A stretch of 64,000 bases of DNA, taken from contig SGYL01000003.1 in the NCBI GenBank assembly GCA_004213885.1, positions 1-64,000 on the forward strand, in the 5' to 3' direction. The notes beneath the pieces are model-generated. The model did not search any database, was not told the DNA's origin, and saw nothing but the letters and a program-made list of their open reading frames with translations. Position numbers and translations under genes: made by a program. This DNA is from Alphaproteobacteria bacterium (GTDB lineage: Bacteria; Pseudomonadota; Alphaproteobacteria; Puniceispirillales; Marisalimonadaceae). Numbering within the stretch: the first letter of the stretch is position 1; each line of letters starts with the position of its first letter. Shown one piece after another: positions 2 through 41,842 of the stretch.

Positions 2-1744
2 CATTAATAATGATGGATTGTAAATAAATGCAAAAGGCACAATATATTTAGCAATACCAACTTTACTAGATTCTACAGCTGTAGACATAGGTGGCGATTT
101 TGCAATTGCTGCTCCTGCAAATGAAGCTAGAGCGACGGGAGGAGTGATTGTAGATACAACTCCAAAGTAAAAAGCAAACATATGAGCAGCAATTGGTGTA
201 ACGCCTGCCTGAACAAGTGAAGGAACGATTAAAGCAGCAACTGTAATATATACTGCAGTAGTAGTCATGCCCATTCCAAGAATTATTGCAGAGATTGCAG
301 TTAAACAGAGTAATGGAAAAAGCATACCACCTGACAAGTCAATAACAGATTGAGTAAATTTTAAACCAAGGCCTGATACAAAAACTGATCCAATTATAAT
401 TCCTGCACAGGCACAAGCTATTGTCACTGGAACTGTTGATTTAATTCCACTTTCAAATGCACCTAAAAGATCAACTACAGACATTCGAGTGTTACTTTTA
501 AAAAAACTTAAAAAAATGACAGAAATTATTGCCCAAAATCCAGCTTTCATTGCAGTATATCCATATATAAGAAGAGCTATTAATACTACTAAAGAAAGCA
601 ACATGTGCCATCCACTTTTTAAAACATCGATTACATTTGGAAGCATGGATTTATCAATTTTTTCTATTCCATGTTTTTCTGCTTCGACATGAACCATGAA
701 ATAAATTGTTACAAAATATAAAAAAGCTGGAATAATAGCAGCCAATACAACGTAAGAGTAGGGCGCTTCTAAAAACTCTGCCATTATAAACGCCGCAGCA
801 CCCATTATAGGAGGAGTTATTTGACCTCCAGAGGAAGCACAAGCTTCAACGGCTGCGGCAAATCTTGGACGATACCCATAATTCTTCATTAATGGTATTG
901 TAAAAGAACCTGTTGTAACAACGTTTGCAACAGCTGACCCATAAACAGTGCCTGTCATTCCAGATGCTACAACAGCAGCTTTAGCTGGGCCACCAGTCCT
1001 ATGACCTGTAAGTGAAATAGCAAGGTCAACAAAAAATCTTCCAACACCAGAGCGGATTAAAATAGCACCAAAGATGATAAATAAAACTATGTATGTGGAT
1101 GCTACATATAGAGGTATTCCGTAGATTCCATCAGACGTCATAAATAAAGTATCAATATACTTTGCAAGTCTTGTTGGTGGTCCATAAAAAAAACCAAAAA
1201 ACTTATGAGCATATAATGCGTGCAACATAAAGAAACCAGCTACAAACACCATTGCCCAACCAACTGCTCTTCTTGTACCATCTAAAACTAAAAATATTAG
1301 AATTGAACCTACTATTATATCTCCTATATATTTATCTCCATATCGCATCATGAATGTTTCGACATCCCAGGTCGTCCATAATTGGACGAAGATTATTGAA
1401 ATAATTATTAGAAAATCATAAATACTTCCCAACAATCTTAAAAAATTCCCTTTTTCATCATTTGGTAAAATTATTTTATCATTAATGCTTTTACGAAATA
1501 CAGGATATATAAATACAGCTAGTATCATCATTACAGACAAATGTACTGATCGAAAGGATCTTCCTTCTGGCGTACCATAAACTGCAACAAATAAATGATA
1601 AAACGCTAAACCGATAGACAACCATGAGCAAATTATAATAATCCAGTAATAGAGTGATTTATCTTTACTCCATTGGATAAGTTCATCAAGAAAGCTTATT
1701 TCTTTTACTTCATTGTAAACGAGTTTTTTTGAAGAAGACTGCAT
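2..1744 (-). CDS. TRAP transporter fused permease (TAXI type), 3' end cut off by window edge
   Basis: This is the membrane permease of a TRAP (sodium-driven, binding-protein-dependent) carboxylate transporter. I translated the minus strand from the ATG at 1744; it stays open for 581 codons to the window edge. About four hydrophobic N-terminal segments (small DctQ-like part) run directly into the large DctM-like part, so it is the fused form typical of TAXI systems. The hallmark GGQITPPIMGAAAF lies around residues 300-315, with a second half repeating the architecture (GMGMTTTAVYITVAAL, then STITPPVALASFAGAA). The binding protein gene lies just upstream on the same strand, separated by a strong hairpin. 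The substrate cannot be read from the permease; the neighbouring catabolic operon suggests a di- or tricarboxylate. Confidence 0.93.
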   Translation of the reverse strand, partial: MQSSSKKLVYNEVKEISFLDELIQWSKDKSLYYWIIIICSWLSIGLAFYHLFVAVYGTPEGRSFRSVHLSVMMILAVFIYPVFRKSINDKIILPNDEKGNFLRLLGSIYDFLIIISIIFVQLWTTWDVETFMMRYGDKYIGDIIVGSILIFLVLDGTRRAVGWAMVFVAGFFMLHALYAHKFFGFFYGPPTRLAKYIDTLFMTSDGIYGIPLYVASTYIVLFIIFGAILIRSGVGRFFVDLAISLTGHRTGGPAKAAVVASGMTGTVYGSAVANVVTTGSFTIPLMKNYGYRPRFAAAVEACASSGGQITPPIMGAAAFIMAEFLEAPYSYVVLAAIIPAFLYFVTIYFMVHVEAEKHGIEKIDKSMLPNVIDVLKSGWHMLLSLVVLIALLIYGYTAMKAGFWAIISVIFLSFFKSNTRMSVVDLLGAFESGIKSTVPVTIACACAGIIIGSVFVSGLGLKFTQSVIDLSGGMLFPLLCLTAISAIILGMGMTTTAVYITVAALIVPSLVQAGVTPIAAHMFAFYFGVVSTITPPVALASFAGAAIAKSPPMSTAVESSKVGIAKYIVPFAFIYNPSLLM

Positions 1745-1760
1745 AAAAAATTTTTAGATA

Positions 1761-1785
1761 AGAAGGTGCTGTTAAAGCACCTTCT
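1761..1785 (-). terminator. intercistronic hairpin between binding-protein and permease genes
   Basis: A perfect 10-bp inverted repeat (AGAAGGTGCT / AGCACCTTCT, loop GTTAA) lies between the stop of the binding-protein gene and the start of the permease gene. There is no immediate T-run, so it is more likely a partial terminator or 3'-end stabiliser. Such an element would keep the binding protein in excess over the permease. Confidence 0.7.
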
Positions 1786-1793
1786 AAATGTAG

Positions 1794-2750
1794 CTACATT
1801 ATGCCTTTTTCTTTATAAAATTTTGCAGCTCCTGGATGAACTGGAACTGCAGCTCCGTTAACAGCATCTTTCATCAAAACTTTTTTCCAGACGCTTTTTA
1901 CTTTAACGAATTCACTATGATTATCCCAAAAAACTTTAGCCATTTTGTAAACTAAATCTGTTGGTAAATCTTTATGAACAATCATAGAAGTTACTATACC
2001 TAGTGTAGGGATGTCCTTACTAAGAGATTTATATGCACTTGCTGGTATTTTGCCGTAAATATAACCTGGATTATTTTTAACAATCCTGTCAATCCTCTCT
2101 TTTGGCAAACCAATAAATCTTATTCCAGGGCTGTTTTCTAATTCAATAAAACTAGCTTGAGGCACTGAAGTAGCAGCCATAAAAACATCAGCTTGACCAT
2201 CTTTCATTAAAGCTACTGATTCCTTATAACTAACCATATGGACAACACCACCATTTTTTTTAATGGTTTCAAAATTAAAACCATAATCTTTAATTATTGA
2301 TTCGCAAAAAGCTGTACCAGTCCATTTTGGTTTGCCTGGACTAATATTTGCATTTTTCATGTCCTCAAAACTTTTGATTTTAGAATCAGCTCTAACTGCT
2401 ACCTGAAAAGCTGCTGGATATAAAGTAGCAAAATATCTTACATTTTTATGATTTTTTTTAAACTTACCTTTTGCATTCCAACCATTAGCAACAGTATGAG
2501 CGTAAGACCATCCAATTTCAGCGTCGCCTCCATTTACAGACATAACATTTGATATACCACCACCAGAAGTGTTAGATGTTGAAATTCCTTTAATGTTACT
2601 TTCAAGTGTTTGCATCACCTTTGCACCTAAAGGATACCATGAACCTCCAGAAGGACCTGATACCATCCTAACAAATTGGTCTGCATTTGCTAAAGTGGCA
2701 ACAATACTCATTGAAGACACAAGAGCAAAAGTTTTTAAAAACTTTTTCAT
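1794..2750 (-). CDS. TAXI family TRAP transporter solute-binding protein
   Basis: Periplasmic receptor that captures the substrate and hands it to the TRAP permease. I chose the start at 2750 (318 aa) because GGAGG sits just upstream and it opens a clean signal peptide (MKKFLKTFALVSSMSIVA, cleavage near LANA). An upstream in-frame ATG at 2789 would add 13 residues ahead of the signal. The mature protein shows family features: a glycine-rich segment GPSGGSWYPLGA near the N terminus, then NTSGGGISN, and later the binding-cleft motif GTAFCESIIKDYGF. It is transcribed towards the permease and is divergent from the catabolic operon starting at 2880, so the intergenic gap 2751-2879 must hold both promoters; I see no clear operator there. 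Confidence 0.93.
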   Translation of the reverse strand: MKKFLKTFALVSSMSIVATLANADQFVRMVSGPSGGSWYPLGAKVMQTLESNIKGISTSNTSGGGISNVMSVNGGDAEIGWSYAHTVANGWNAKGKFKKNHKNVRYFATLYPAAFQVAVRADSKIKSFEDMKNANISPGKPKWTGTAFCESIIKDYGFNFETIKKNGGVVHMVSYKESVALMKDGQADVFMAATSVPQASFIELENSPGIRFIGLPKERIDRIVKNNPGYIYGKIPASAYKSLSKDIPTLGIVTSMIVHKDLPTDLVYKMAKVFWDNHSEFVKVKSVWKKVLMKDAVNGAAVPVHPGAAKFYKEKGIM

Positions 2751-2879
2751 AATTATTTCCTCCAAAATTTCTTTATTAATATAGTTCACTAATAATTTCT
2801 AACTAAGTCAACATTTAAGAATAATATTGGTGAAAATTTTTGAAATTGAATTAATATATCCATCTATTGGAGGAATTTA

Positions 2880-3824
2880 ATGAATATAGATATAAAAGAA
2901 GTTGTTTTGACAGAAGTTGGTACACGTGATGGGTTTCAATCTGAAAAAAAAATAGTAAGTACTGAAGATAAAATTATGCTTATTAATGAGCTTGTTAAAG
3001 CTGGTTTTAAGCGAATAGAATTTTCTTCATTTGTCTCTCCAAAAGCAATCCCTCAACTAGCAGATGCAGATAAAGTAATTCAGGGGGTTAATAGAAATAA
3101 TGATGTAACTTTTACTGCCTTGGTTCCAAATTTAAGAGGGGCTATAAGAGCTTTAGAGTGTCAAATAGATGAAATTGTAGTTTTTTTATCAGCTTCAGAA
3201 AGTCATAACCAAAAAAACCTCAATAGATCAATCAATGAATCTTTAACTGGCTTTGAAGAAGTTGTTAAGTTGGCTAATGATAATAATATTCCTGTACATG
3301 GTGATATATCAACAGCTTTTGGTTGTCCTTTTGAGGGAAATGTTGAATACAAAAAACTTATAGAAATCTCTAAACAATATAAAGAACTTGGTTTTAAAGG
3401 AGTTACTTTAGGCGACACAACTGGAATGGCAACTCCTCCCGTTGTAAAATCTGCAATTAGAGAAATACAAGATAATGTTCCAAATTTTGACATTACTTTA
3501 CATTTTCACAATACAAGAGGTGTAGGGCTTGCAAATGTCTTAGTAGGATTAAACGAGGGTGTCCATTTATATGAAAGTTGCTTTGGAGGAATAGGTGGTT
3601 GTCCATTTGCGCCAGACGCAACAGGTAATATCTGTTCAGAAGATTTTGTCTACATGATGAATGAAATGAATATTAAGACTGGAATAGATATTAATCATTT
3701 AATTAAAATAGCCAAAGAGGCAGAGAGAATTTTAGATTATAAGTTACCTGGGCAAGTTATGCATGCAGGAGAAAGATTAAAGAAATACTCACTCGAAGAC
3801 GTTAAAACTGCAAAAGGTAATTAA
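2880..3824 (+). CDS. hydroxymethylglutaryl-CoA lyase family enzyme
   Basis: A 314-aa TIM-barrel lyase of the HMG-CoA lyase / homocitrate synthase superfamily, which cleaves a 3-hydroxyacyl-CoA to acetyl-CoA and a keto acid. The N-terminal TEVGTRDGFQSE (Arg-Asp catalytic pair), the GDTTGMA segment and the signature FGGIGGCPFAPDATGNICSE with its active-site cysteine are all visible. The length is typical. GGAGG precedes the ATG by about 5 bases. It opens an operon with a CoA transferase 3 bases downstream and an enoyl-CoA hydratase. It could be true HMG-CoA lyase (leucine breakdown) or cleave another branched hydroxyacyl-CoA; the isopropylmalate-dehydrogenase-like and PrpF-like neighbours favour the second, but that is inference. 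Confidence 0.88.
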   Translation: MNIDIKEVVLTEVGTRDGFQSEKKIVSTEDKIMLINELVKAGFKRIEFSSFVSPKAIPQLADADKVIQGVNRNNDVTFTALVPNLRGAIRALECQIDEIVVFLSASESHNQKNLNRSINESLTGFEEVVKLANDNNIPVHGDISTAFGCPFEGNVEYKKLIEISKQYKELGFKGVTLGDTTGMATPPVVKSAIREIQDNVPNFDITLHFHNTRGVGLANVLVGLNEGVHLYESCFGGIGGCPFAPDATGNICSEDFVYMMNEMNIKTGIDINHLIKIAKEAERILDYKLPGQVMHAGERLKKYSLEDVKTAKGN

Positions 3825-3827
3825 TTT

Positions 3828-4973
3828 ATGAACAAAGAAGGAGCATTATCTGGGATAAAAGTTATTGATTTAACAAGAGTAATATCTGGTCCTTTTTGTA
3901 CTTTACTATTAGCTGATATGGGAGCTGAAGTTATAAAAATTGAGCCTCCAAAAGGCGATAATGTTAGAAATCAAGGTGAATTTGTAGATGGTTATAGTTC
4001 ATACTTTGCTCAATTTAATAGAAACAAAAAATCTGTGGTCTTAGATTTATATCAAAATGATGATAAAGAAAAATTAAAACTATTATTAAAAAATGCAGAT
4101 GTGATTGTTGATAATTTTAGACCAGGTGTCCTTGCCAAAATGGGATTAGATAGTAAAACTTTGACTTCAATAAATTCTAGATTAATTCAAGCATCAGTAA
4201 ATGGCTTTGGTAGTACTGGACAATATAGTCAAAGACCAGCTTTTGATTTTATTGCACAAGCGATTTCTGGCTTCATGTCATTAAATGGATCTGAAAAAAC
4301 TGGACCAGTAAGAACAGCAGCTCCAATTTCTGATTTGATTGCAGGTTTGTATTGTGCATTTGGAATTGTCACTGCGATTAATGCAAGGCATAATACAAAA
4401 AAGGGGCAAGTCGTTGAAACAAGTTTAACATCTAGTTTAATATCTCTTATGGCTTATTTATCTGCAGAATATTTTGTAACAGATAAACCTCCAAAAAAAT
4501 CTGGAAACGATCATCCAATTTTATCACCTTATGGTTTATTCAAGACAAAAGATGGTAACATTGCTATTGCTCCAGCAAATGACAAATTATGTAGTATTTT
4601 TTTAAGAACTTTAAATTTAGAACATTTACTTGAGGATGATCTTTACAAAACGAATTCTTTAAGAATGATCAATAGAGATAAACTTAATGATATAATTAAT
4701 AAAACAACAGAATTAAATACTACTGATTATTGGATTGAAAAACTGAATCAAAGTGGTTGTCCTGCTGGAAAAGTTTTAGACATGAAAGAAGCTTTGAATG
4801 ATCAATTAGTTGAAGATACAGACATGGTTATAGTATCTGATGGACCAGATAATAGAAAAATAAAAATGACAGGATTTCCTGTTAAGTTATCTGATACACC
4901 TGCACAGTTATTTAGGTCTCCGCCCAAGCTAGGGGAGCATACAAAAGAAATATTATCTAAGATTAAAAATTAA
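3828..4973 (+). CDS. CaiB/BaiF family (class III) CoA transferase
   Basis: A 381-aa class III CoA transferase that moves CoA from one acyl-CoA to a free carboxylic acid. Visible family features are the N-terminal GIKVIDLTRVISGPFCTLLL, the ADMGAEVIKIEPP segment, NKKSVVLDL, and DFIAQAISGFMSLNG with the region of the catalytic aspartate. Full family length. It follows the lyase gene by 3 bases and precedes the hydratase by 15, so it is almost surely co-transcribed. In context it would activate the imported acid so that hydratase and lyase can act on the CoA ester. The exact acid cannot be told. Confidence 0.9.
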   Translation: MNKEGALSGIKVIDLTRVISGPFCTLLLADMGAEVIKIEPPKGDNVRNQGEFVDGYSSYFAQFNRNKKSVVLDLYQNDDKEKLKLLLKNADVIVDNFRPGVLAKMGLDSKTLTSINSRLIQASVNGFGSTGQYSQRPAFDFIAQAISGFMSLNGSEKTGPVRTAAPISDLIAGLYCAFGIVTAINARHNTKKGQVVETSLTSSLISLMAYLSAEYFVTDKPPKKSGNDHPILSPYGLFKTKDGNIAIAPANDKLCSIFLRTLNLEHLLEDDLYKTNSLRMINRDKLNDIINKTTELNTTDYWIEKLNQSGCPAGKVLDMKEALNDQLVEDTDMVIVSDGPDNRKIKMTGFPVKLSDTPAQLFRSPPKLGEHTKEILSKIKN

Positions 4974-24442: not shown

Positions 24443-25132
24443 ATGTCTGAAATTTCTTCAAATCAATCATTAAATAAAATATTGGACCAATTAGGAATCA
24501 ATAAAACAAAAGAGAAGTTTGCTCCAAGAGAAGTAAAAGATCAGTTGGGTCAAGAAGATTTTTTGAAGTTGATGACAGTTCAACTTCAGAACCAAGATCC
24601 ATTTGCTCCAGTAGATAATGCTGACTTTATTGCTCAAATGGCACAATTTTCTACTGTTACAGGAATTACTCAGATGGGTGAAACTATGAAGAATGTAAAC
24701 AATCAATTATCTGAATTGAGAATTGCTTCAGCAACCCAATTAATGGGACATTCAGTATTAGTTCCTGGAAAATTAGCAAGGCCAAATCAAGAGGGGATTA
24801 TCAGTGGTGTTGTAGATTTACCTAAAACGGCATCAAACTTAAATATTATTTTCGAAAGCATGGAAGGTGAAGTTCTTCATGAAGAGAATTTAGGTCCTCA
24901 AGTTGCTGGACTAGTTGGTTTTCAATGGAAAGATCTTCCAAAAGATATGATAGAAAGTAAAAAGCAAATAATGATCAAAGCTTTTACCGGTAACCAAGGT
25001 GATGCAGATCAATTATCAACAAAAGTATTTGCCAAAGTTGAAGGGACTTCCAAAACTGATAATGGCTATATGCTTGAAGTAGAAGATTATGGATCAGTTG
25101 ATCCATCACAAGTAGTAAGATTTAAGAATTAA
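24443..25132 (+). CDS. flgD: FlgD, hook-capping protein
   Basis: A 229-aa scaffold that caps the growing hook. The N-terminal export and capping motif GQEDFLKLMTVQLQNQDPFA, then PVDNADFIAQMAQFSTVTGI, is strong. The C terminus holds the FlgD Ig-like/tudor region (LNIIFESMEGEVLHEENLGP, FQWKDLP). Followed by flgE after 24 bases. Confidence 0.95.
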   Translation: MSEISSNQSLNKILDQLGINKTKEKFAPREVKDQLGQEDFLKLMTVQLQNQDPFAPVDNADFIAQMAQFSTVTGITQMGETMKNVNNQLSELRIASATQLMGHSVLVPGKLARPNQEGIISGVVDLPKTASNLNIIFESMEGEVLHEENLGPQVAGLVGFQWKDLPKDMIESKKQIMIKAFTGNQGDADQLSTKVFAKVEGTSKTDNGYMLEVEDYGSVDPSQVVRFKN

Positions 25133-25156: not shown

Positions 25157-28100
25157 ATGTCGTTTTATACCGCTTTAACAGGTTTGAATGGATCTCAGGC
25201 TGATATCTCAGCAACTTCTAACAATATAGCAAACGTTGCGACTACAGGTTATAAGAGAAGTAAAGCTGAATTTGGTGATATTTTTGCGACTTCACCATTA
25301 CAAAATGCATCATCATCAATTGGTTCTGGTACTATTTTAAAAGGTATTAAACAACAATTTACTCAAGGTAACGTAACATCTTCACTTAATGCACTTGATT
25401 TAGCAATATCCGGTCAAGGTTTCTTTGCTCTAAGGCCTTCTCTTACTACTAATCAAACAGTTTATACTAGAAACGGTTCTTTTTCAGTAAATAATGATAG
25501 ATTTGTGGTTGACTCTGCAGGTCAGTATGTTTTGGCACTTCCTGTATCTAATGATGGATCTGTTCAAGGTGGAGAAATTGTTGATGCGGCACCATTAAAA
25601 TTAGAATTAGAAGCTGGTGAAGCAAAAGCTACAAAAAATTTAGATTTATCGGTGAATCTTCCTGCATCTTCAAGTGTTTATGCAAATGCAGATGATTTTG
25701 ATCCATCAAATCCTGAGACATATAATTCTTCAACTTCTGTCACAATTTTTGATAATTTAGGTAACCCTGTTATTGCAACAGCTTATTTTATTAAAACTCA
25801 AGCTGCATCTGGAGATAATGTAACCCACAAATATCAAACAAAATTTATCGTTGATGGAAGAGAAGTTGAACCTTCTTTGACAGAAGCCATTTCACCAACT
25901 GGGCAAACACTTGTTGTTGATAGATTTGGTCAAATAATACCAATAGATGAGAAACCACAGATTATTTCTGTTGCTCAAACTCAGCCATTATTTTATTTAG
26001 ATGATCTGGCAAATAAAACTGTATCAAAAGCTGCTACAGTAACGAATGAAGTACTTGAAGATGCAGCTTTTACAACCACAGCTCCATCTATAACTATAGT
26101 AACAGATCCTTTACAATATAATACAACTTATGAAGCAAACCCTACATTAAATAAATCAACTTATTGGGGAAAAGATTTTCTTACAATAAGAGTTGATGAT
26201 ACTACTGGAAGTGCAGCTTTTAAAAGTATTGATATAAGACCTGGGACTTATACTGCAGCTTCTCTTGCACAAGAAGTTCAAAGAGCAATTAATGCAGGTT
26301 TAGGTGATGATTCCAAATTGTCTATTGACCCAGTTACGGATGGAAACTTTTCAATTCAATTTAACCAGTTAGATAATAATGATGAAATTCAAACACTATC
26401 TGCAATTAAGGTTGACTTAATGAAAGATAGTTTTGTTACTGAAGATTTATTTAGTTCAACAAGTGGTATTGAAAATGTTGCTTCACCAAACTTTGAAAGA
26501 GAAGAATTTTTAGCTCATGCTCAATTAAGAATAAATGATGCTTTAAATAGAGCAGCTGTATCATCTGATGGTGCTACTAATAATTCATCTACTTATGGTG
26601 TTAGCTCATCACTATTTGCCAGAGGGACTGGAGCTAAAATAGCAAATGCAATTCAAGAAACAGAAGTGTTAAGTTTTAAATATAAACAACCAGCTACAGA
26701 TTTAACTAACGAAAATGCAGTTACGGATGAAACTAAATTCTTACTACATAGTTATTATAATTCTTCCCCAACTTTAAAAGTTTTTGAAAGTTCATTAGAT
26801 GTTAAAGCTGTTAGTGGTAATACAATGGTTCAAGATGCTAGTGGTACATTAAAAGTTTATGTGAATGACCCTAATGATACAATATCTACTACAACTTTTC
26901 CAACTGAAGTTCATCTAGCTGGAGAATTTGATACATCAACTTCTGAAGTTAACAATTTAAAGTATAATGGTGCAAAATTTTCTGTTTCTAGTGCTGGAAC
27001 TGACGCAAATGGAAATAAATTTTTAAACCTTAAATCAGATTCAACTTCAGCAATTAATATTACAGATACAAAAATCAAAGTACTTCACACTGAATCTAAA
27101 GATGTTCAAGCTTATTTTGAAGGTGGCACTGATATATTTGATAATCAAACTCAACATTTTGGAAGTAAAAGAATTGTTCTTAAAGAGTTAAATAAACATG
27201 GTTATTTAAATAGTAATGTTAAACAACCTAACACTTTATTAAATATGGCAAGTGGAATGAATACGAACAATTCAATAACTATAACTGTTGATACAACAGT
27301 TGGTTTTCCAGAGAGTGGTACTTTATTAATTGGTTCTGAAGAATTAACTTATGATGGTAAAACAGCTACTACATTTGCGATTACAGGCAGAGGTCAAAAT
27401 GGAACTAGTGCAGCTACTGCACTTGATGATGCAACAGTAAAATTAGCGTCATTTAGTGAAGATGTTTTTAGTGGATTTAAGGACAAACTTAGAAATACTA
27501 CATATACAGATACAACTGCTTTTACAAATTCTCAACCAACTGTAGTTGTTGCTTCAACTGATGGGTTTCCAGATACAGGAACATTATTAGTTGGTAATGA
27601 AAGAATTACATATACTGGCAAAACAGATACTACTTTCACTGGCTTAGGTCGAGGTGCAGATAATACAACTGCAGCAGCTGCGGTTTCAGCAAATTTAACT
27701 GCTGCAGTAACTGTTACAACACCTATTTCAACTATAACAATAAATGATACCTCCTCTTTTGCTGACAGTGGTACAATTATGATAGGAACAGAATTCTTTA
27801 CATATACTAGTAAGGACGATGCGACTAATACTTTCAATGGTATTACTAGAGGTGCTTTTGGCTCAACAGCAGCTACACATGCCACTGGAACAAACAATGT
27901 TAAGCAAGCTCCAGAGATTAGTTTAGTTGAGAGTGTAGAGACTATCGGGCTAGAGATAAGGACTACCGATGTTGCATCAGCGGCAACTTCAGAAGATACA
28001 ACACTAACTGTTGATTCTACAGCTGGTTTTGAAGATGCTGGATTTTTAAGAATTGGAACAGAAGTAATTGGTTATACAGGTAAGACGGATACAACTTTTA

Positions 28101-29797
28101 CTGGTTTAACAAGGGGAGCATCAGGTACAAGGAAACAAGCTCATTCAGTTGATGATAAAATTTTCCAAGAGATATCTATTACTGATGATTGGGTTGATGA
28201 AAACGATCCTGCTCTTAAAATCACGTATGATTCTTCTGGGCAACATTTTAGTTTACAAGGTGTTCCTTCAAAAATTGGAACATCAACATCAAGTAAAATG
28301 TTTTCTTTTTCAGCTTACGCACCTGGTGAAGGAACTGGTTCAAATGCAATTGGTTTAAAAACATTAGCTAATAAAGCTACTGCAAATATTGGTGGTGGTG
28401 CTGTATTAAAAGCAGAGGCAATTGTTTTTAATGGCGATCAGATCGCAGCTGATACTCAAAGAGCGTATGGAGTAGAAGTATCTTATAATAATTTAACAAG
28501 AAAGTTTGACATTTCCAGTGGAAGTACTGGTGAAGATATTCCTTCAAACTCTGCTGTTGGTGTTGGTGATGCAGGTCAGGCTGCTTCAAATATTGAGATT
28601 GGAAGACTTGCTATAGTCAATGGTGAAGCAACAGCTGCTACCGCTGGCACTGGTGGAACTAATGCGCTGTTAGGAATTAATGCTACATCTGCTGTTTCGG
28701 TAGCTGCAGGTGATACTGCTGGTAAAGGACTGAAGTCAACAGCTGCTACTTTAAGTGGTAAAACCTCAAATGAAGACTTATCTGAAGATTTCTTTTTATC
28801 TTCTGCAGCTGAAGAGACAATTTTTGTTGTAAACGTAAATGATATAACGGCTGCTATTAAAGTACCTGAAGGTGTTTATAATGGAACTCAGTTAGCAACA
28901 GCTCTTCAAGAAAGAATTAACCAGATGGAAGATGGTACTGGAAATACTGTAAATGGTGTTACTGTTGTCTATAATACAAATACAAATTCTTTTACATTTA
29001 CAACAGGTACTACTGGTATAAAAAGTAAAATATTCGTTTCTGGAAGTGCTCGTTTAGGGTTAGATAATCTAGAACTTCAAACTGGATCAACACCTTCATT
29101 CGTAAACATGGCTAATGCTACGGCAACTTCTGCTACTGGCCAATCTTTATATGTGAATGATGACGGTGATACCACAACATTAGCACCTGATAGTTCTTGG
29201 ACACCAACAACTAATGGTACTTTTGCAAAAGTTTACTTAAGACCAGGAGAATTAACATTTGATACACAAGGTAACTTGGTTAGTCCAATACAAAAAGTTG
29301 GATATAAAGGTGACTTCGCTGCTAATGCAGATCTAGATCAGTCAGCATTATCAATTGATCTGGATCTTAATTTTAATGGATCAACTCAATTCGCATCTGA
29401 TTTTAACGTTAAATCTGTTACACAAGATGGTCAAACAGTTGGTAAATTAGATGGTTTGGACGTAGCATCTAACGGTCTAGTTAGTGCAAACTACACGAAC
29501 GGATTGAACATTGCACTTGGCAGATTGGTAACTGTTAATTTTAACAACCAAAATGGTTTAAAACAGATAGGTAATGCAACATATGTTGAAACTTCAGTTT
29601 CTGGTGTTGCAAATGTTGGTGAAGCTGGTGCTGACGGTTATGGTACAATTCTTTCAGGTTCTTTAGAAAGATCAAATGTAGATATTACCGAAGAACTTGT
29701 AAACTTAATTACAGCCCAAAGAAACTTTCAGGCCAATGCTAAAACAATTGAGACAAATACAACTCTAACTCAGGCAATTATTCAAATTAGGGCATAA
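25157..29797 (+). CDS. flgE: FlgE, flagellar hook protein, unusually large
   Basis: 1546 aa, against a usual 400-700. The ends are canonical: the N terminus SQADISATSNNIANVATTGY and ALDLAISGQGFF; the C terminus LSGSLERSNVDITEELVNLI, TAQRNFQANAKTIETNT. The large insert is exposed hook surface. It contains FlgE-type pieces (IDIRPGTYTAASLAQEVQRA; VPEGVYNGTQLATALQERIN) and, at about residues 705-1000, four copies of a repeat of the form FPxxGTLLIGxExxTYTGKT, TFTGxxRGAxGT. AGGAG lies just before the ATG. GC content of the insert looks slightly higher than in flanking genes. Co-transcribed with flgBCD and flgF. Confidence 0.95.
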   Translation: MSFYTALTGLNGSQADISATSNNIANVATTGYKRSKAEFGDIFATSPLQNASSSIGSGTILKGIKQQFTQGNVTSSLNALDLAISGQGFFALRPSLTTNQTVYTRNGSFSVNNDRFVVDSAGQYVLALPVSNDGSVQGGEIVDAAPLKLELEAGEAKATKNLDLSVNLPASSSVYANADDFDPSNPETYNSSTSVTIFDNLGNPVIATAYFIKTQAASGDNVTHKYQTKFIVDGREVEPSLTEAISPTGQTLVVDRFGQIIPIDEKPQIISVAQTQPLFYLDDLANKTVSKAATVTNEVLEDAAFTTTAPSITIVTDPLQYNTTYEANPTLNKSTYWGKDFLTIRVDDTTGSAAFKSIDIRPGTYTAASLAQEVQRAINAGLGDDSKLSIDPVTDGNFSIQFNQLDNNDEIQTLSAIKVDLMKDSFVTEDLFSSTSGIENVASPNFEREEFLAHAQLRINDALNRAAVSSDGATNNSSTYGVSSSLFARGTGAKIANAIQETEVLSFKYKQPATDLTNENAVTDETKFLLHSYYNSSPTLKVFESSLDVKAVSGNTMVQDASGTLKVYVNDPNDTISTTTFPTEVHLAGEFDTSTSEVNNLKYNGAKFSVSSAGTDANGNKFLNLKSDSTSAINITDTKIKVLHTESKDVQAYFEGGTDIFDNQTQHFGSKRIVLKELNKHGYLNSNVKQPNTLLNMASGMNTNNSITITVDTTVGFPESGTLLIGSEELTYDGKTATTFAITGRGQNGTSAATALDDATVKLASFSEDVFSGFKDKLRNTTYTDTTAFTNSQPTVVVASTDGFPDTGTLLVGNERITYTGKTDTTFTGLGRGADNTTAAAAVSANLTAAVTVTTPISTITINDTSSFADSGTIMIGTEFFTYTSKDDATNTFNGITRGAFGSTAATHATGTNNVKQAPEISLVESVETIGLEIRTTDVASAATSEDTTLTVDSTAGFEDAGFLRIGTEVIGYTGKTDTTFTGLTRGASGTRKQAHSVDDKIFQEISITDDWVDENDPALKITYDSSGQHFSLQGVPSKIGTSTSSKMFSFSAYAPGEGTGSNAIGLKTLANKATANIGGGAVLKAEAIVFNGDQIAADTQRAYGVEVSYNNLTRKFDISSGSTGEDIPSNSAVGVGDAGQAASNIEIGRLAIVNGEATAATAGTGGTNALLGINATSAVSVAAGDTAGKGLKSTAATLSGKTSNEDLSEDFFLSSAAEETIFVVNVNDITAAIKVPEGVYNGTQLATALQERINQMEDGTGNTVNGVTVVYNTNTNSFTFTTGTTGIKSKIFVSGSARLGLDNLELQTGSTPSFVNMANATATSATGQSLYVNDDGDTTTLAPDSSWTPTTNGTFAKVYLRPGELTFDTQGNLVSPIQKVGYKGDFAANADLDQSALSIDLDLNFNGSTQFASDFNVKSVTQDGQTVGKLDGLDVASNGLVSANYTNGLNIALGRLVTVNFNNQNGLKQIGNATYVETSVSGVANVGEAGADGYGTILSGSLERSNVDITEELVNLITAQRNFQANAKTIETNTTLTQAIIQIRA
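27270..28150 (+). repeat. four-copy repeat inside flgE
   Basis: Four protein-level copies, at about 27270-27420, 27532-27690, 27724-27880 and 27991-28150. Each has a beta-rich start, GTLLIG/GTIMIG/GFLRIG, a conserved tyrosine-threonine (TYTGKTDTTFTG) and RGxxGT. Copies differ clearly, so they are old duplications. Similar repeats are, from memory, frequent in marine phage tail and neck proteins. Confidence 0.8.
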
Positions 29798-33580: not shown

Positions 33581-36500
33581 ATGTCTAGTTTATTTGAAAT
33601 TGGAAAATCAGGTGTTCAAGCATATCGTCAGGCTTTATCTGTAACGGGTCAAAATATTGCTAATGTTAATACTGACGGTTATAACAGAAGAGCTGCTGAT
33701 CTCGAGGAGGTTCCAAGTGTTCAAGGTGGAGTAACCAATGTACCTGATCAATCTGGTTTAGGAGTACGAGTTAACAAAATAAGGCGCTCTTTTGATGCTT
33801 TTCTTTCATCAAATCTTAGAGATAATAATGCAGAATATACAAAATTAAAAAAATACGTAGATAACTTAAATAAATTAGAAAATATGTTATTACCAAGTGA
33901 TAGCGATTTAGGAAAATTTATTGGACGTTTTTTTAATTCTTTACAAGATGTATCTTCACGACCTGACGACATTTCATCTAGATCTATCGTAATTGAAAAT
34001 GGAAAAGCTTTAGCAAATTCTTTTAATAATTATGATATGCAATTGAAATCATTTCAATCAACTGCAAGTAAAGAAACTGAAACAAATTTATCAGAGTTAA
34101 ATGAAACTTTAAAACAACTAGCCCAAGTTAATAAATTAATCATGAGTGGAGGTTCAAAAAACTCATCTCCAGACATATTAGATGCGAGAGACCAATTATT
34201 ATCAAAATTATCAAATTTAATTGATTTTTCAGTAGATTATGGAAAAAGTGGAGAAGCAAAAATCACATCGGGTAGTTCTGGAAATGGAAAACTATTACTT
34301 GAAGATACTAACTTTTCAATTTTAACTCATACTATACAAGAAAATAAAATAGTTTTTAATGTCAATAGAGATGCAAAAACTAGTTCTTTAAATAGTTTTT
34401 CTTCAGGAATTTTAAGTGGAATAAAAAATTTTTATGACTTTTCTTCAGATGTTCAATCAGAAATAAATGATCTTGCAAGAAGAGTTGCTAGAGATTTTAA
34501 TGAGATTCAAAAAATTGGGATTGATTTAAATGGAAAAATAGGTTCATCAATGTTTTCTATCAATTCGATGGAAGCAAAAGTTAATGGAAATAATAATTCT
34601 AACTTTAATGTAGAATTAATCATTAGCGATGAAGATAAAATCAGTCAGGAAGATTTGAATTTTAAATTCATTTCTTCTTTAAATTCATGGCAAGTAGCTT
34701 CATCAAGTGGTATTAAAAATTATAATGCAGATAATTTAAGTTTTAATGGATTTAAATTAAAAATAGATGGTATTCCAAGTGATGGAGATCAGTTTTATTT
34801 AAGGCCAGCATTATCAAATGCTTCTGCTTTTTCTTTTTTATTAAATGACCCAAAATCAATTGCAGCAGCATCTAAAAATTTAATTTCAGCTTCACTTGAA
34901 AATACAAGTAAAGCTGAGCTTAAAATAATAGGAAATGAAGTTGAAAATAAGAATAATCAAATTGCTAAAATTAATGATGTTTTTAGTTCTTCGACCAATC
35001 CACTTCTAGCTTCGGAGTTCCTAAAAGACGGGGCTATTGCAACAATTCCAAGCAATTCTAATGAAATCAAAATTTCATCTTTATTGAAACAATCATCTGC
35101 AACATTTGGTATTTATGATAGTCAAATAAAAGGTTTTTCAAATATTTCTATTAATTTGTCTGATGGTAGTAGCATAAATTTAACATCAGCTGTTGAAGAT
35201 CCAGGCGATGGAATTAAATCAGTTCATGAATTAGCAAATATGTTAAATTCAGGCTTATTACTTGATGGTTTAAGTCAACACAATTTTAGGAAATTTGGTT
35301 TGTTTGCATCTGGGGCTGATGGTGGTCTAACGATTTCCTCATCAAATTCTTCTGTGTCCTCTGCATCCATTTTGTCCAATGGTAATACTTATACAGCATC
35401 AATTTCAGACATACCTTCTGACAAAGCAAAGGCTAGTGAGATTCAAATTTTTACAAGAGATGGACGACATATCAGTGGAAAATCATTAGATGCATCACAA
35501 ATAGCGTCACTTTTTAAAGAAAGTAATGGTTTTTTGAAAAATGCTGAGTATAGAAATGATTATTTAAATACGAATTATAGAGGAATTGAAAGTAATAGGG
35601 TAAGTGTAACCGGAGACCACATTTATGACTTTGGTACTAATATAAGTTATGATAAACAAGCAACCGATGAAGATGGATTATTTACAAATAAAAATGCACA
35701 GTCTTTATCTGGAGCTCTTGTACTTGATGGAGAATTAGCAAACTCTAATGACATTGATGGTTATATAACCATAACTAATTCATTAAATGATACTTCTATA
35801 AATTATACTATTAAAGGTTATGATCAAGATGGTAACTTTCAAACAGAAACGCTTCCCGGGGGAAGTGAAGCACAAGTTACTGGGAATAAAATTTTTAAAT
35901 CAATCTCTTCTATTACATCTAGTGGAAATGGTGCTGGGGACTTAAAAATTGGGATCAAATCTGCTGGTTTTACTCTTAAAGTAGAAAACAACAATGGAAA
36001 TATTTCTAGTTCAACTATGCCAGTTAATGCCTCTGCTTATTATATGGCAGATAAATTAACTAATGATCTGGCAGGAACTGGAATACAAGCAACTGCGTCA
36101 AATAGGGTTATGTTAGGTCCATTATCTTCTGATACAAATGGATTAATGTCATTTAAATTGAAAGGCAGTAATTTCGATCCAGTAACTATATCTGCTAATA
36201 TTTCACAAGATGATTTATCAAACTTAGCGAGAGTTATTAATCAATATTCAACTCAAACAGGTATAAATGCTTACTCTACAGAGGATTTTGATCGAATTGT
36301 TTTAGAATCAAATGTTGGTTATGACATAGAATTAACTGAAATAAGTTCACCTTCGGATTTCAAGATATATTCATTAAATCAAGATTTTGAAAGAATAAGC
36401 GATCGTCATTTTATAGATGTTTCAGAAAGTTCAAAAAGATCTGCTTATATTAATGGAACAATTAGATTTTCATCAACATCAGATTTTACAACTCAAATTG

Positions 36501-39500
36501 ATAACGGGATCTTAAATTCATCTCAATTAGATGAAAAAACAAATGGCTTTTACAACATAAATTATAATTCAACTGGAGAAAAAATTACTGTAAATCCGAT
36601 TTCACTTGAACACTTAGATGATAGTGTTTCAGGTCCAAATGGAAAAAAATCTCAATCAGGAAAAGCAACATATGGATTAAGCATTCCTTTGGCAGGCTAT
36701 AGAGTTGAAGTGACGGATGATGATAGCTTATATACTCAAGCAAGCCCTGCGGGTACAGGCACAAAAAGTTTTTCAGGTGGGTTTCTAAAAGATAGCTCAA
36801 ATTTAAACTCAACTATCGTGTTAACTTGTCTTGGAGATGAAAGCGCAAATACTTTTACTATAAGTGGAACAGATTATGATGGAAATACTGTTTCTGAAAC
36901 TTTAAATGGTGTGAATAATGGTGTTATAAAAGGTGTTCAACTATTTAAATCTGTTACTTCATTTTCTCTTTCAAACGCTGTAAGTGGAAATATTAAAATA
37001 GGAACTGATGGTCGCCATAGGGTAAATGATGATGATTCGATACTTACTCAAAATACATATACTTCAAATACCTATACAACCTCTTCGACACCTGCCTTAA
37101 ATGGAATACTGTCATCTTCAACCTATTTAGGTGCAAAGTTAACAATTCAAAACTTTGAAGATGAAAGAAATAATACTTTCACGGTAACAGGATATAATTT
37201 AGATGGTGATGTAATAACAGAACAAATAAAAGGTACAAATGGAACTTTATCTATGGGAGAAAAAGTTTTTAAAAGTATTACTTCAGTAGCAATAGCAAAT
37301 AACACGTCTGGTTCAATTAAAATTGGAACAGTTGCCGCAGAGGATTTTTGGAAAGCTAATATAGATGCAAATGCTTTAAATTTGTCAACATCATCGGAAA
37401 TATCTCAATCACTTCTCAATAAAATCAGAGAAGAAGCGCCTACTTCAAAGATAGAAGGTTCTGTGATTAGTAACTTACCTATTGACGATTCAGAACTAGA
37501 TGTTGTTTTTGAAGGACAAACATATTCCTTAAAAATGACTTCAGGTGAATTACTTGTAGATGGACCTGAAGAAAATAGAGTAAAAGCAAAATTTGAAGAA
37601 ACATCAAATATTTCTGAAAATTCTATTGCATTATCCCAACTAGGGTCTGCTGGAGTAAATTTAACTTTGAATGGTAATAGTGCAACTTCTACATTTGCAG
37701 GTACAAGAGTTTCGATTACTTCAGTTGAAGATGAAAGTTTGAATAGTTTTACTGTTTCTGGAACTGATTTGAATGGTAATGCAATTACAGAAAAAATAAT
37801 AGGATCAACCGCAGGTAATACTAATTCAGGTTTAAAAATATTTAAAACAATTACTTCAATTCAACCAAGTTCAAATACTGCAGGTAACATACAAATTGGT
37901 ACAGCAACAGCCTATAAATTAATTGTCATTGCAGAAGGGACTATTGAAGGTGACCAATTTGACTTAGTTCAAGATACACAAAATTTGTCTTCAGCTTCAA
38001 ATTTTGGAATATCTGATGGAACAACCTCATTAATTGGTAATTTAGCTCTGAAACCAACTGAAAATGATACTTCCTTTAGAATTAACATTGAAAATAATGA
38101 TTTAATTAACGATTTCAATGTTAAGTTTTTAAGTGATAGTAGTGAAACTTCTTTATTAACAAGCTCTGCAATCTCTAGTACAGCAGACTTATTTGGAGGA
38201 ACACCTAGTACAACTCTTCTTGGAGGAAAAATTAATATTAAGACGGCAACATCTGGAGATAGAACTGGTGTAAATTTCACAGTGGTTGGAAGAGATATGA
38301 GTGGTAATGAAATTACTGAGGTTATTACAGGTGCAATTGGAGGAGAAACAGCTAAAGGATCAAAAATTTTTAAAACGGTTACATCAATAACACCAAGTGC
38401 AACAACTGGATCTGGTAATATTGAAATAGGGCACGAAAGTCAGCCAGTGTTCTTTAATGTGTCTAATGAACAAAGTCTATTTTCATCAAAAATAATGACT
38501 ACAAATACAAGTTTAGGAACTCCAAAAACTCATAGTCAGGTTGGAGGTAAAGTTAAAATATTTACTGCCTCTGGAGGAGATCATTCAATTACTAAATTTA
38601 CTATTGTAGGAACTGACTATAAAGGTGATGCTTTAACAGAAGTTATTGAAAATGGACCATTAAGTGGAAAAGCAGTTGTTGGAGGCAAAATATTTAAAAC
38701 AATAAGTTCTATTACACCTCAGCCTATTTCAGAAATAGTGACATCTGCAAACGTATCAATAGCAAATGATACCATTACAATCTCTAATCATATGTTATCT
38801 ACAGGATCAAAAATAACTTATTCGAACGGAAGTGCTGCTGACATTACTGGTTTGTCAAACAATACTGATTATTATGCAATTGTAATAGATGCAAATACAA
38901 TAAAACTTGCAAGTTCACTTGCAAATGCAAACTCTAACAACTCAATTTCACTAACAGGTACTGGAAATAATAATCAAACTTTTACTAGGGATGTTATTGG
39001 TACTGGTTCAGTAGATATTGATTTGGTAATTACAACAGATGCAAGTTTAAATCCACCAAGTGATATTACAGTAAGTTGGACAGACGATGCTTCTGGGACT
39101 ACTGATGATGATGGTTTATTTCAAAGTGCGGCCGTTTCTGGAAGTCCACCTTCAAAATTACAATTAAATGGAGTATTAACTTCACAAGATACCGATAGTT
39201 TGTATGCCACAAAGACAGGTACTTCTGGATTATTAAATTTAGATGGTGCCTTAAAAAATAATAAAGAATTAAGAGCTGTCGTTCAAATCGCTTTTTCTGG
39301 GGCAGAAACAGGTAAAACATTTACTGTTGCTGGATATGATTTGGATGGAATTTATAAAACAGATGTAATTAATGGTCCAAATAGTGCTTCTACAATCGAG
39401 GGATCTGTGCAATTCAGAGAAGTTATTTCTATAACTGCATCAAGTGCTACAGCTAACAATATTCAAATTGGAACAAGAGCAGAATCAGCAAATGTAAATG

Positions 39501-40540
39501 GATCTGTGATATCTATAACATCCTCTGGTGATGAAAGTAATAATGAGTTTACAATTGTTGGCAAGGATATGTTCGGAAATGATCAAACAGAGATTATGAT
39601 GGGTGGTAATGCAACATCTGTAAATGGAAAAAAAGTTTTTAAATCAATAACATCAATTACTCCGTCATCAGCTACAGGTGTAAATACTATAAAAGTTGGA
39701 ACTATTTCAACAGGAAGATTTTCTATATCCCATGAAATAGGAAAATCTAACTTTTCAATTGATAGAAATCCTAATGTTCAAGATGTTTATGGTATTAAAA
39801 CTCAAAGGACTAGAGCAATTATTAATGACGGGAAGATAGAACTTAACTCATTGAATGGACGACCTATATCAGTCGATATACCAGCAGGTTCAACATCCAA
39901 TGTAGTTTCTGAACAAATATCTATTTCAAACCTTCCTAATGAAGAACTCATAGCTGTTGTAATGGGTGGTGGAGCAAGAAGGATTAATGCAGAATTTAAT
40001 TTTGTTAATGACAATCATATTAAAGAAGAACCAGAGTATGAAATAAAAATTGACAAAACTAATAAAAATAAAATTGAAATATTTGATAAAGAATTTGGCC
40101 ATTCTATTTCTACTAGAATTTTAGACAATGCAAGATCTTTTGAAGCTATTGGATCAAGATTCCAATTCTCTGATGAAGCATTAATTGGCGAGAGTTTTTT
40201 GATTAGCAATAATAACTCAGGTTCGGGTGATAACAGAAATATAAATAATATGTTGGATTTACAATCTGATAAAATACAATCTAAGGGAAAAGGAAATTTT
40301 CAACAAATTTTTTCTAATACTGTTGCTAAAGTTGGCAGTAGTGTTCAAACAAATAAATTATCTTTAACTGCAGCGGAAGCTAACAAAGATGCTGCAGAAA
40401 GTGCTTTAAGCGAATTTTCAGGTGTTAGTTTAGATGATGAGGCAGCTCATTTATTGGAGTTTCAGCAAGCTTATCAAGCATCGGCACGATTATTGCAAAC
40501 TGCAAGAGAATTATTTCAATCATTAATTGAAGTAGTCTAA
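33581..40540 (+). CDS. flgK: FlgK, hook-filament junction protein 1, giant form with repeats
   Basis: 2319 aa, several times the usual 450-1000. The ends are canonical. The N terminus has SVTGQNIANVNTDGYNRRAA, VRVNKIRRSFDAFL and DISSRSIVIENGKALANSFN. The C terminus has NKLSLTAAEANKDAAESAL, SGVSLDDEAAHLLEFQQAYQ and ASARLLQTARELFQSLIEVV. The 1600-residue insert carries about eight copies of a module whose core reads FTIxGxDxxGNxxTEVIxG, then KxFKxITSITPSS and a final IxIGT. Several copies are preceded by a DDDGLF...LDG segment. The frame is uninterrupted, so it is not an assembly of pseudogene pieces. Stop at 40540; flgL follows by 15 bases. Confidence 0.95.
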   Translation: MSSLFEIGKSGVQAYRQALSVTGQNIANVNTDGYNRRAADLEEVPSVQGGVTNVPDQSGLGVRVNKIRRSFDAFLSSNLRDNNAEYTKLKKYVDNLNKLENMLLPSDSDLGKFIGRFFNSLQDVSSRPDDISSRSIVIENGKALANSFNNYDMQLKSFQSTASKETETNLSELNETLKQLAQVNKLIMSGGSKNSSPDILDARDQLLSKLSNLIDFSVDYGKSGEAKITSGSSGNGKLLLEDTNFSILTHTIQENKIVFNVNRDAKTSSLNSFSSGILSGIKNFYDFSSDVQSEINDLARRVARDFNEIQKIGIDLNGKIGSSMFSINSMEAKVNGNNNSNFNVELIISDEDKISQEDLNFKFISSLNSWQVASSSGIKNYNADNLSFNGFKLKIDGIPSDGDQFYLRPALSNASAFSFLLNDPKSIAAASKNLISASLENTSKAELKIIGNEVENKNNQIAKINDVFSSSTNPLLASEFLKDGAIATIPSNSNEIKISSLLKQSSATFGIYDSQIKGFSNISINLSDGSSINLTSAVEDPGDGIKSVHELANMLNSGLLLDGLSQHNFRKFGLFASGADGGLTISSSNSSVSSASILSNGNTYTASISDIPSDKAKASEIQIFTRDGRHISGKSLDASQIASLFKESNGFLKNAEYRNDYLNTNYRGIESNRVSVTGDHIYDFGTNISYDKQATDEDGLFTNKNAQSLSGALVLDGELANSNDIDGYITITNSLNDTSINYTIKGYDQDGNFQTETLPGGSEAQVTGNKIFKSISSITSSGNGAGDLKIGIKSAGFTLKVENNNGNISSSTMPVNASAYYMADKLTNDLAGTGIQATASNRVMLGPLSSDTNGLMSFKLKGSNFDPVTISANISQDDLSNLARVINQYSTQTGINAYSTEDFDRIVLESNVGYDIELTEISSPSDFKIYSLNQDFERISDRHFIDVSESSKRSAYINGTIRFSSTSDFTTQIDNGILNSSQLDEKTNGFYNINYNSTGEKITVNPISLEHLDDSVSGPNGKKSQSGKATYGLSIPLAGYRVEVTDDDSLYTQASPAGTGTKSFSGGFLKDSSNLNSTIVLTCLGDESANTFTISGTDYDGNTVSETLNGVNNGVIKGVQLFKSVTSFSLSNAVSGNIKIGTDGRHRVNDDDSILTQNTYTSNTYTTSSTPALNGILSSSTYLGAKLTIQNFEDERNNTFTVTGYNLDGDVITEQIKGTNGTLSMGEKVFKSITSVAIANNTSGSIKIGTVAAEDFWKANIDANALNLSTSSEISQSLLNKIREEAPTSKIEGSVISNLPIDDSELDVVFEGQTYSLKMTSGELLVDGPEENRVKAKFEETSNISENSIALSQLGSAGVNLTLNGNSATSTFAGTRVSITSVEDESLNSFTVSGTDLNGNAITEKIIGSTAGNTNSGLKIFKTITSIQPSSNTAGNIQIGTATAYKLIVIAEGTIEGDQFDLVQDTQNLSSASNFGISDGTTSLIGNLALKPTENDTSFRINIENNDLINDFNVKFLSDSSETSLLTSSAISSTADLFGGTPSTTLLGGKINIKTATSGDRTGVNFTVVGRDMSGNEITEVITGAIGGETAKGSKIFKTVTSITPSATTGSGNIEIGHESQPVFFNVSNEQSLFSSKIMTTNTSLGTPKTHSQVGGKVKIFTASGGDHSITKFTIVGTDYKGDALTEVIENGPLSGKAVVGGKIFKTISSITPQPISEIVTSANVSIANDTITISNHMLSTGSKITYSNGSAADITGLSNNTDYYAIVIDANTIKLASSLANANSNNSISLTGTGNNNQTFTRDVIGTGSVDIDLVITTDASLNPPSDITVSWTDDASGTTDDDGLFQSAAVSGSPPSKLQLNGVLTSQDTDSLYATKTGTSGLLNLDGALKNNKELRAVVQIAFSGAETGKTFTVAGYDLDGIYKTDVINGPNSASTIEGSVQFREVISITASSATANNIQIGTRAESANVNGSVISITSSGDESNNEFTIVGKDMFGNDQTEIMMGGNATSVNGKKVFKSITSITPSSATGVNTIKVGTISTGRFSISHEIGKSNFSIDRNPNVQDVYGIKTQRTRAIINDGKIELNSLNGRPISVDIPAGSTSNVVSEQISISNLPNEELIAVVMGGGARRINAEFNFVNDNHIKEEPEYEIKIDKTNKNKIEIFDKEFGHSISTRILDNARSFEAIGSRFQFSDEALIGESFLISNNNSGSGDNRNINNMLDLQSDKIQSKGKGNFQQIFSNTVAKVGSSVQTNKLSLTAAEANKDAAESALSEFSGVSLDDEAAHLLEFQQAYQASARLLQTARELFQSLIEVV
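35759..39708 (+). repeat. about eight copies of a phage-like module inside flgK
   Basis: Approximate copies: 35759-35970, 36810-37011, 37131-37338, 37702-37910, 38221-38449, 38540-38730, 39270-39486, 39500-39708. Shared core: a strand ending xIxITS, FTIxGxDxxGN, TExIxG, KxFKxITSIT, and IxIGT. The same module appears twice in fliD and twice in the minus-strand flagellin. Copies differ enough that they are not recent DNA duplications. Confidence 0.85.
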
Positions 40541-40555
40541 TAAAAAGATATTATA

Positions 40556-41842
40556 ATGAAAGTTAGTACTAAATTATTTAATCAACAACAACTGAAGCAA
40601 TTTACTTCTTTAAACGAAGAAATTCAAAAAACTCAAAATAAAATTTCAACAGGTAAAAACATACTCTTAGCTTCAGATGATCCTATAGGATCTGTTCAGT
40701 TGTCAGGTTTACAAGTAATTAGAGATCAAATAAATCAATATAATAAAAATATTGAAACTTCAAAGGAAAGACTAAGTTTACTCGATAAAAACTTACAAAA
40801 CATGAATACAATTATGATTAGAGCTCAAGAGTTGATAATACAAGCATCTAGTGATGTATTAGGACCATCTGATAGAGAATCAATTGCTCTTGAAATTGAT
40901 GAAATGAAGCATGAAATTTTAAGTATTGCAAATACTCAAGACTCTACAGGAAGTTTTCTTTTTTCTGGATATAAAACAAATACTTTACCTTTTGAAAAAG
41001 ATTTTAATGGTTTAGTACAATATAATGGTGATAGAGGTGTTTCCTCATTATCTATTTCTGAAAGTAATATCATGCAAACCACTTTAGATGGAGGAAGTGT
41101 ATTCCAAAATGTAATAGATAATAATCAAAAGAGTTTCTCCGTTTTTGAACTTTTAGAAGATGTTAGTGCATCTATTAGAACTGCAGCAGCAGGTGTGAAT
41201 GGTGTAAAATCAATTGCTCAAGCAGAATTATCAATTTTTAACCAAAATCCAGGACAATGGTCTTTTGAAATAACAGGGAGTTTAGGTACTCAAAATATAG
41301 AAGTTGAAATTGCAGGTGACAATCCAACAGAAATTGTTGATAAAATAAATCAATATATCAACACTACAGGTATTACAGCTAGTTTAGATAGTGATGGTAA
41401 AACAATACTTCTATCAGATTCTAAAAACGGTCCATTAGAAATTAAAAATTTATCTGTATATGGCGTTGAAAGAGCTGAAGAAACTCCAAAATCTTATATT
41501 GAGGTTAAAACAAAAGACGCAGTTGGTAATTTTTTAAGTAAAAATCAAATATTGTACGATGATAACCAAAGGCCAGCCAAACAACTAGATAAAATTGTAA
41601 ATGCTCAATCGCATATTTCTAATAAAAGAGGGTCAGTTGGTGCTAGGGTAAATTCACTTGAAAGACAATCTGAACTCTTAATAGAACGACAAAATGCTGT
41701 AGAAAAGGATGTAAGTGATTTAAGTGAAGCAGATTTATCAACTTTAGTAACAAATTTGCAATCTATGCTTACTTCAATGCAAGCTAGTCAACAGGCATTT
41801 GTAAAAGTATCTCAGCTTAACTTGTTTGATTATATTAGATAA
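40556..41842 (+). CDS. flgL: FlgL, hook-filament junction protein 2
   Basis: A 428-aa flagellin-like junction protein. N terminus: EIQKTQNKISTGKNILLASD, DPIGSVQLSGL; C terminus: SHISNKRGSVGARVNSLERQ and SEADLSTLVTNLQSMLTSMQ, ASQQAFVKVSQLNLFDYI. The central region has a flagellin-IN-like segment (EITGSLGTQNIEVEIAGDNP). Normal length, unlike FlgK. Confidence 0.94.
   Translation: MKVSTKLFNQQQLKQFTSLNEEIQKTQNKISTGKNILLASDDPIGSVQLSGLQVIRDQINQYNKNIETSKERLSLLDKNLQNMNTIMIRAQELIIQASSDVLGPSDRESIALEIDEMKHEILSIANTQDSTGSFLFSGYKTNTLPFEKDFNGLVQYNGDRGVSSLSISESNIMQTTLDGGSVFQNVIDNNQKSFSVFELLEDVSASIRTAAAGVNGVKSIAQAELSIFNQNPGQWSFEITGSLGTQNIEVEIAGDNPTEIVDKINQYINTTGITASLDSDGKTILLSDSKNGPLEIKNLSVYGVERAEETPKSYIEVKTKDAVGNFLSKNQILYDDNQRPAKQLDKIVNAQSHISNKRGSVGARVNSLERQSELLIERQNAVEKDVSDLSEADLSTLVTNLQSMLTSMQASQQAFVKVSQLNLFDYIR

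Follow-up and report, generated by a model that had tools for sequence, protein, structure and literature searches.

An uncultured marine SAR116-type bacterium has a giant hook protein, FlgE, in which a unit of ~57 aa occurs four times; sequence comparison identifies this unit as homologous to units of phage virion proteins. In our view, the copies are likely to represent a virion-surface domain of phages that has been put to new use as an outer decoration of the hook. Our data establish the modular insertion of the FlgE units, their restriction to one family, their quick evolution under constraint and their predicted fold.

The four units and their place in the hook protein

The window, by which we mean the whole 64,000-nucleotide stretch of DNA analyzed, lies in a flagellar gene cluster (GC 30%) of a 1.4-Mb draft genome that is 84% complete and comprises 16 contigs. 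The hook gene flgE (25157-29797, forward strand; 1546 aa) sits on a 123-kb contig, with an flgD-like open reading frame (ORF; 24443-25132) on one side and flgF/flgG-like ORFs on the other. Pfam matches at both ends of the protein make up the complete hook-protein domain set of Flg_bb_rod, D1 (LlgE_F_G_D1), D2 (FlgE_D2, 2.8e-19) and C-terminal Flg_bbr_C (1e-15). The Pfam search of FlgE returned no peptidase domain, and no match on the units themselves.

The first-pass annotation had placed four repeats of this 1546-aa protein at window positions 27270-28150, and correctly so, as a profile search finds exactly four unit copies at 27257-28156. Their pattern is FPxxGTLLIGxExITYTGKT...RGxxGT. Over the aligned span, the other three copies are 39-42% identical to unit 1, and the residues T, F, G, G, E, Y, K, T, F, R and G are invariant in all four; the core of G, E, Y and R is invariant in these copies and in 79 phage and cellular units. 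No further copies were found by profile search elsewhere in the draft genome, and none of the window's flagellin genes contains one. The genome has four Flagellin_N matches, all inside the window (40556-41842, 55159-57264, 57418-59637 and 60926-62920), and the first of these ORFs is probably FlgL.

Alignment of FlgE across the order resolves three insertion sites set apart by framework segments: site A holds unit 1, site B units 2 and 3, and site C unit 4, all read here on the forward strand. Unit 1 (27257-27433; profile match 6.6e-26) is followed by a spacer (27434-27517) with the framework segment VKLASFSEDVFSGFKDKLRNT, which lies between sites A and B and is conserved among the family's FlgE proteins. 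Units 2 (27518-27691; 2.0e-27) and 3 (27710-27892; 3.7e-21) stand in tandem. The framework segment between sites B and C (27893-27979; EISLVESVETIGLEIRTT) aligns with SLDVLGLQT of unit-less hooks, such as that of L034, and precedes unit 4 (27980-28156; 1.1e-27), the best conserved of the four. Sites A and C hold the unit in all family members aligned. Site B varies, with two units in the window's genus, one unit plus other modules in most of genus g2, and modules other than the unit also in most relatives from g2 and g3; in one genome, G034, it holds two units plus a module of the HGF type described below. A third module type, LTVADATNIAAGDLVFGTNIPDGTTVASISG, is present at site B of L022 and other g2 hooks in about three copies (about aa 790-1010). 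In family f3, two HGF-like modules occupy the region of the hook protein that corresponds to the unit sites. The FlgE unit inserts are present or absent between families, and their edges are ragged.

No part of FlgE is less conserved than the units, whose mean pairwise identity among ten relatives is 0.54, versus 0.92 for the rest of the protein. Their dN/dS is 0.24-0.47 versus 0.04-0.10 for the rest, so that they are maintained yet change quickly. This pattern fits an exposed, non-core surface and is inconsistent with decay.

Phage relatives in sequence and predicted fold

The first-pass annotation had attributed the repeats to marine phage tail and neck proteins and had proposed an HMM comparison with phage proteins and a structure prediction of one unit; both bear the attribution out. 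All four unit stretches match PHROGs families, including the virion structural family phrog_4406 (1.2e-25), the baseplate wedge families phrog_708 and phrog_2885, and phrog_22827, to which no function is assigned. To avoid circularity, we built a phage-only profile from 105 viral units and no cellular ones. It scores 60.8, 74.6, 48.7 and 66.1 bits on units 1 to 4, versus 3.6 bits for the best other frame of the window; 1000 shuffled versions of the FlgE region reach at most 5.9 bits. The repeats match virion proteins and not flagellar hook domains, and the hooks of other families of the order lack the unit.

Pairwise searches with the window's own sequence gave no match (the whole 333-aa FlgE region against phages, tblastn at 1e-5) or only nine weak cyanophage records (one window copy, tblastn), and the case for homology is therefore carried by profiles and relatives. 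One copy from a family-mate (L014) retrieved 354 phage records by tblastn (best listed E 3e-7), mostly from cyanophages, with pelagiphages and roseophages in addition, annotated as tail tube B, structural protein, baseplate wedge and tail sheath. A permuted control query, whose composition differs from the real copy by two letters, retrieved 11. Identity to phage units reaches 0.72-0.74, with a maximum of about 0.72 for FlgE units. Plasmids gave no match to the unit.

A scan of viral contigs yielded at least 521 confirmed relatives among at least 600 candidates, from which 80 loci were kept. BLAST comparison with FlgE, FlgK, FlgG, FlgH, FlgI and FlgD shows no flagellar protein among the products of these 80; the hosts of the unit are instead several unrelated virion proteins. 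They include phrog_3287 proteins, with one or two copies and with solved relatives among which are the nozzle chains 8zkm and 8zkk, SU10-type adaptors of the neck (SU10_adaptor, PF24175), and proteins of phrog_5107 and phrog_12985. HMO-2011 is a phage of the SAR116 isolate IMCC1322. Relatives of its gp44 and gp45 (54-81% identity) carry a 60-70 aa insert with the unit that is absent from the HMO-2011 proteins; at one locus (L076), two adjoining proteins are 76-81% identical to gp44/gp45, each with one clean unit insert. In marine tailed phages the unit is thus an optional insert, found in neck, nozzle, baseplate and tail proteins. Such clean-insert behavior holds for phage adaptors and gp44 homologues, both of which are known with and without the insert. 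HMO-2011 was rejected as a direct donor, since no unit is present in the initial 45 kb of its 55-kb sequence.

Structure prediction of a single unit gives a small beta-barrel of six short strands (mean pLDDT 92.2). Compared with the predicted viral proteins of BFVD, this model has 16 matches at E<=0.001 (best 3.9e-6, TMq 0.93), and TM scores against predicted phage proteins reach 0.95. The unit thus appears to share its fold with its phage counterparts, the structures on both sides being predicted. Within a model of the FlgE region, the units mostly reach pLDDT 80-95, and the whole region has a pTM of 0.35. Foldseek found no match below 0.001 between the unit model and solved structures. On realignment, the first solved structure is a VP1 capsid entry, chain 9in6_M (Z 9.8, rmsd 1.6 over 66 residues), and next come the GP4 portal-tail chain 8jov_1 (Z 8.5), the Mystique tail tube 9n71_A (Z 7.6), the LKA1 tailspike 4ru4_B (Z 7.3) and then the F1-ATPase crown barrel (Z about 6). 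The top of this list is therefore made up of phage parts, followed by F1-ATPase crown barrels, and none of the solved matches listed bears an Ig label. A sequence profile search against solved structures found none of the exact unit family; a short stretch of influenza hemagglutinin in that search was dismissed as a chance-level match (E 0.16 or worse).

Phage Chi attaches to flagella. Unit 4 as modeled within the FlgE region (27974-28174; model residues 370-442) resembles a domain of the tail tip of this phage, 8vjh_A (Z 10.1, rmsd 1.5, 72 residues), a likeness that may be a coincidence.

Distribution in cells and in other flagellar proteins

Within the window's SAR116 family, 46 of 58 genomes have the unit, as do all six of those that are at least 90% complete. 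Elsewhere in the order we obtained one weak match (3.3e-6) among 78 genomes, and FlgE of the other three families (f2-f4) lacks the unit. In a sample of the class, only one of 385 genomes has it, the window's own; in a sample of the phylum it occurs in 7 of 397 other genomes. Among the phylum-sample ORFs, L145, L146 and L148 have weak phage-tail or sheath signatures, L149 resembles L148, and L147 is non-phage. One unit lies within the Molybdopterin-domain span of a Myxococcales molybdopterin oxidoreductase-like protein (L134:4864-8010), and units also occur in large ORFs of a Flavobacteriales MAG and a Euryarchaeota MAG (L135, L136). Separately, a 666-aa SAR116 ORF without a Pfam match (L143:1004-3001) contains one to two units; judged only by eye, its beginning is reminiscent of pilus or secretion proteins.

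Beyond the hook, several g2 genomes have three units in a FlgK of ~2400 aa (L140) and three in a giant flagellin of ~980 aa with Flagellin_N and Flagellin_C (L141; likewise L142, L144 and L140:17074-19899). Identity between these FlgK and flagellin units goes up to 98%; it is about 55% with FlgE units and up to 67-74% with phage units. The high mutual identity suggests that units were copied between the two genes in these relatives, and they perhaps stem from a capture separate from that of the FlgE units. In the tree, one FliC/FlgK unit groups with phage units on a starred branch. On the ~59 usable columns, the data do not reject one common origin for all flagellar units (AU p 0.158).

Proposed origin and role, and other modules

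We propose that an ancestor of the SAR116 family acquired the unit, most likely from phage virion genes, and that it came to be placed at three sites in the loop region of the variable FlgE middle. FlgE would be exported with each ~57-aa unit folding by itself, and the polymerized hook would then display four units per subunit on its outside. There they would thicken or shield the hook surface and, probably, interact weakly with surfaces, other cells or sugars. We infer the phage-to-cell direction of transfer from the distribution of the unit, and any count of captures is likewise an interpretation. With a pTM of only 0.35 for the FlgE-region model, the putative exposure on the hook exterior is argued instead from the architecture of FlgE (PMC5069557). 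Surface shielding, contact or adhesion, and stiffening are all candidate roles.

It is conceivable, if rather unlikely, that the units only stiffen or stabilize the hook mechanically, with no binding or shielding. Hook proteins are giant across the whole order (about 1260-1740 aa), both with and without the unit, and extra outer FlgE domains join inter-subunit contacts in other bacteria (PMC5069557). However, the units' standing as the least conserved part of FlgE would be unusual for a contact surface, and the unit also occurs in flagellin and FlgK of relatives. The rarity of the unit in the class and phylum samples, where three of the seven phylum ORFs are weakly phage-like and a fourth resembles one of these, weighs against another account, which we regard as improbable: a generic beta-barrel of secreted proteins, common to phages and flagella through a need at the surface and without direct exchange. 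Single proteins that are neither phage nor flagellar do carry the unit (L134, L135, L136 and L147), and the fold alone is also like that of the F1-ATPase crown barrel. Also against this account stand the more than 500 viral candidates from one viral-contig scan and the high identity to phage units.

Transfer may also have run the other way, with marine phages taking the unit from SAR116 flagella, for example for mimicry of the host surface. The tree is compatible with a single flagellar clade, and at least one SAR116-infecting phage type, HMO-2011, has unit-bearing relatives, but the unit occupies many unrelated virion hosts in cyanophages, pelagiphages, roseophages and other phages, whereas its cellular occurrence centers on one family and order; we hold this direction to be very unlikely. 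Finally, the draft and fragmented state of the window genome might raise the concern that phage DNA was fused to a flagellar gene by assembly or binning. The ORF is uninterrupted on its 123-kb contig, however, and the arrangement recurs at conserved sites in FlgE of many separately assembled genomes from four genera. Such agreement among independent genomes refutes an artefact, to which we assign next to no probability.

The reading that we prefer, a virion domain decorating the hook, has partial precedents. The marine phage unit resembles the FlgE unit in profile, in its invariant G, E, Y and R, in length and in predicted fold, and it too is inserted or in tandem in a tube-forming or surface protein; the host in the window differs in being a hook subunit whose gene belongs to a flagellar cluster on the chromosome. 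FlgE of Campylobacter jejuni (domains D3/D4) and of Caulobacter (D3) also has lineage-specific domains in its variable middle, but these had no PDB match when reported, whereas the FlgE unit is repeated and has phage relatives (PMC5069557). Salmonella FlgE with C. jejuni D3-D4 was fully motile, which demonstrates that large foreign domains are tolerated in the FlgE middle, while with D3 by itself the strain was non-flagellated (PMC5069557). Flagellinolysin is a known case of a domain insert in flagellins, again foreign and again placed where a flagellar protein faces outward; it is a metallopeptidase of cellular origin in flagellin (PMC5595980), in contrast to the FlgE unit, a small domain of virions that occupies the hook and, in relatives, FlgK and flagellin. 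The giant flagellins of marine gammaproteobacteria are likewise oversized flagellar proteins of marine bacteria, but concern the filament only, and the abstract of that report mentions no phage link (PMC6248924). Phage decoration, cement and Ig-like domains, such as gp1 of GP4, are also small beta domains on the exterior of the virion; gp1 is described as Ig-like (PMC9698820) and has 157 residues, whereas one of the nearest solved matches of the unit, 8jov_1, is a separate chain of 116 residues.

A literature search, conducted largely without subscription papers, turned up no earlier case in which FlgE, FlgK or flagellin carries a phage virion domain. The surface of flagellar proteins includes hypervariable regions; according to a survey of 113,285 flagellin genes, the source is known for none of these in the two species studied in depth (PMC7018530). 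In the window's hook, and in the junction protein and flagellin of relatives, the domain has identifiable relatives in marine phage neck and tail proteins, some of them in kin of a phage type whose host belongs to this order of bacteria; the question of origin thereby becomes testable. In the hook, nature would have put a part of the virion to new use within a cellular machine of similar geometry, namely a helical tube whose subunit accepts large inserts. More tentatively, and with somewhat more doubt than belief, we raise the broader scenario that virion domains entered the hook, the hook-filament junction and the filament of the SAR116 family more than once, that the flagellum surface is built with virus parts, and that phages feed flagellar variable regions.

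The first-pass annotation had gone further in describing two independent phage-type families on one flagellum, a claim that survives in part. One FlgK stretch in the window (38741-39007), an HGF/TGDKITYSNG-type module, is 46-56% identical to Prochlorococcus phage tail-fibre or YapH proteins, but the main FlgK repeat, searched with one copy, gave no phage match at 0.01. Site-B modules of the third, GTTVASISG type from g2 relatives gave no phage match at 1e-3, and with no phage match found we do not claim either this type or the main FlgK repeat as phage-type. The HGF-type module of FlgK is also seen in FlgE of G034 (L042), at 54.5% identity to a stretch of the window's FlgK, and a related form is present in FlgE of family f3 (L029, L030). 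A repeat of the form SFTVSGTDLNGNAITEKI...KIFKTITSI...NIQIGT is common to FlgK and a flagellin of the window (33581-40540 and 57418-59637) and to the L141 flagellin; for one copy of it, no phage match was obtained at 0.01. The L141 flagellin (1348-4290) is matched in its N-terminal part by phrog_16088 (3.6e-55), a family with no assigned function, and on this sequence match some phages may encode flagellin-like proteins.
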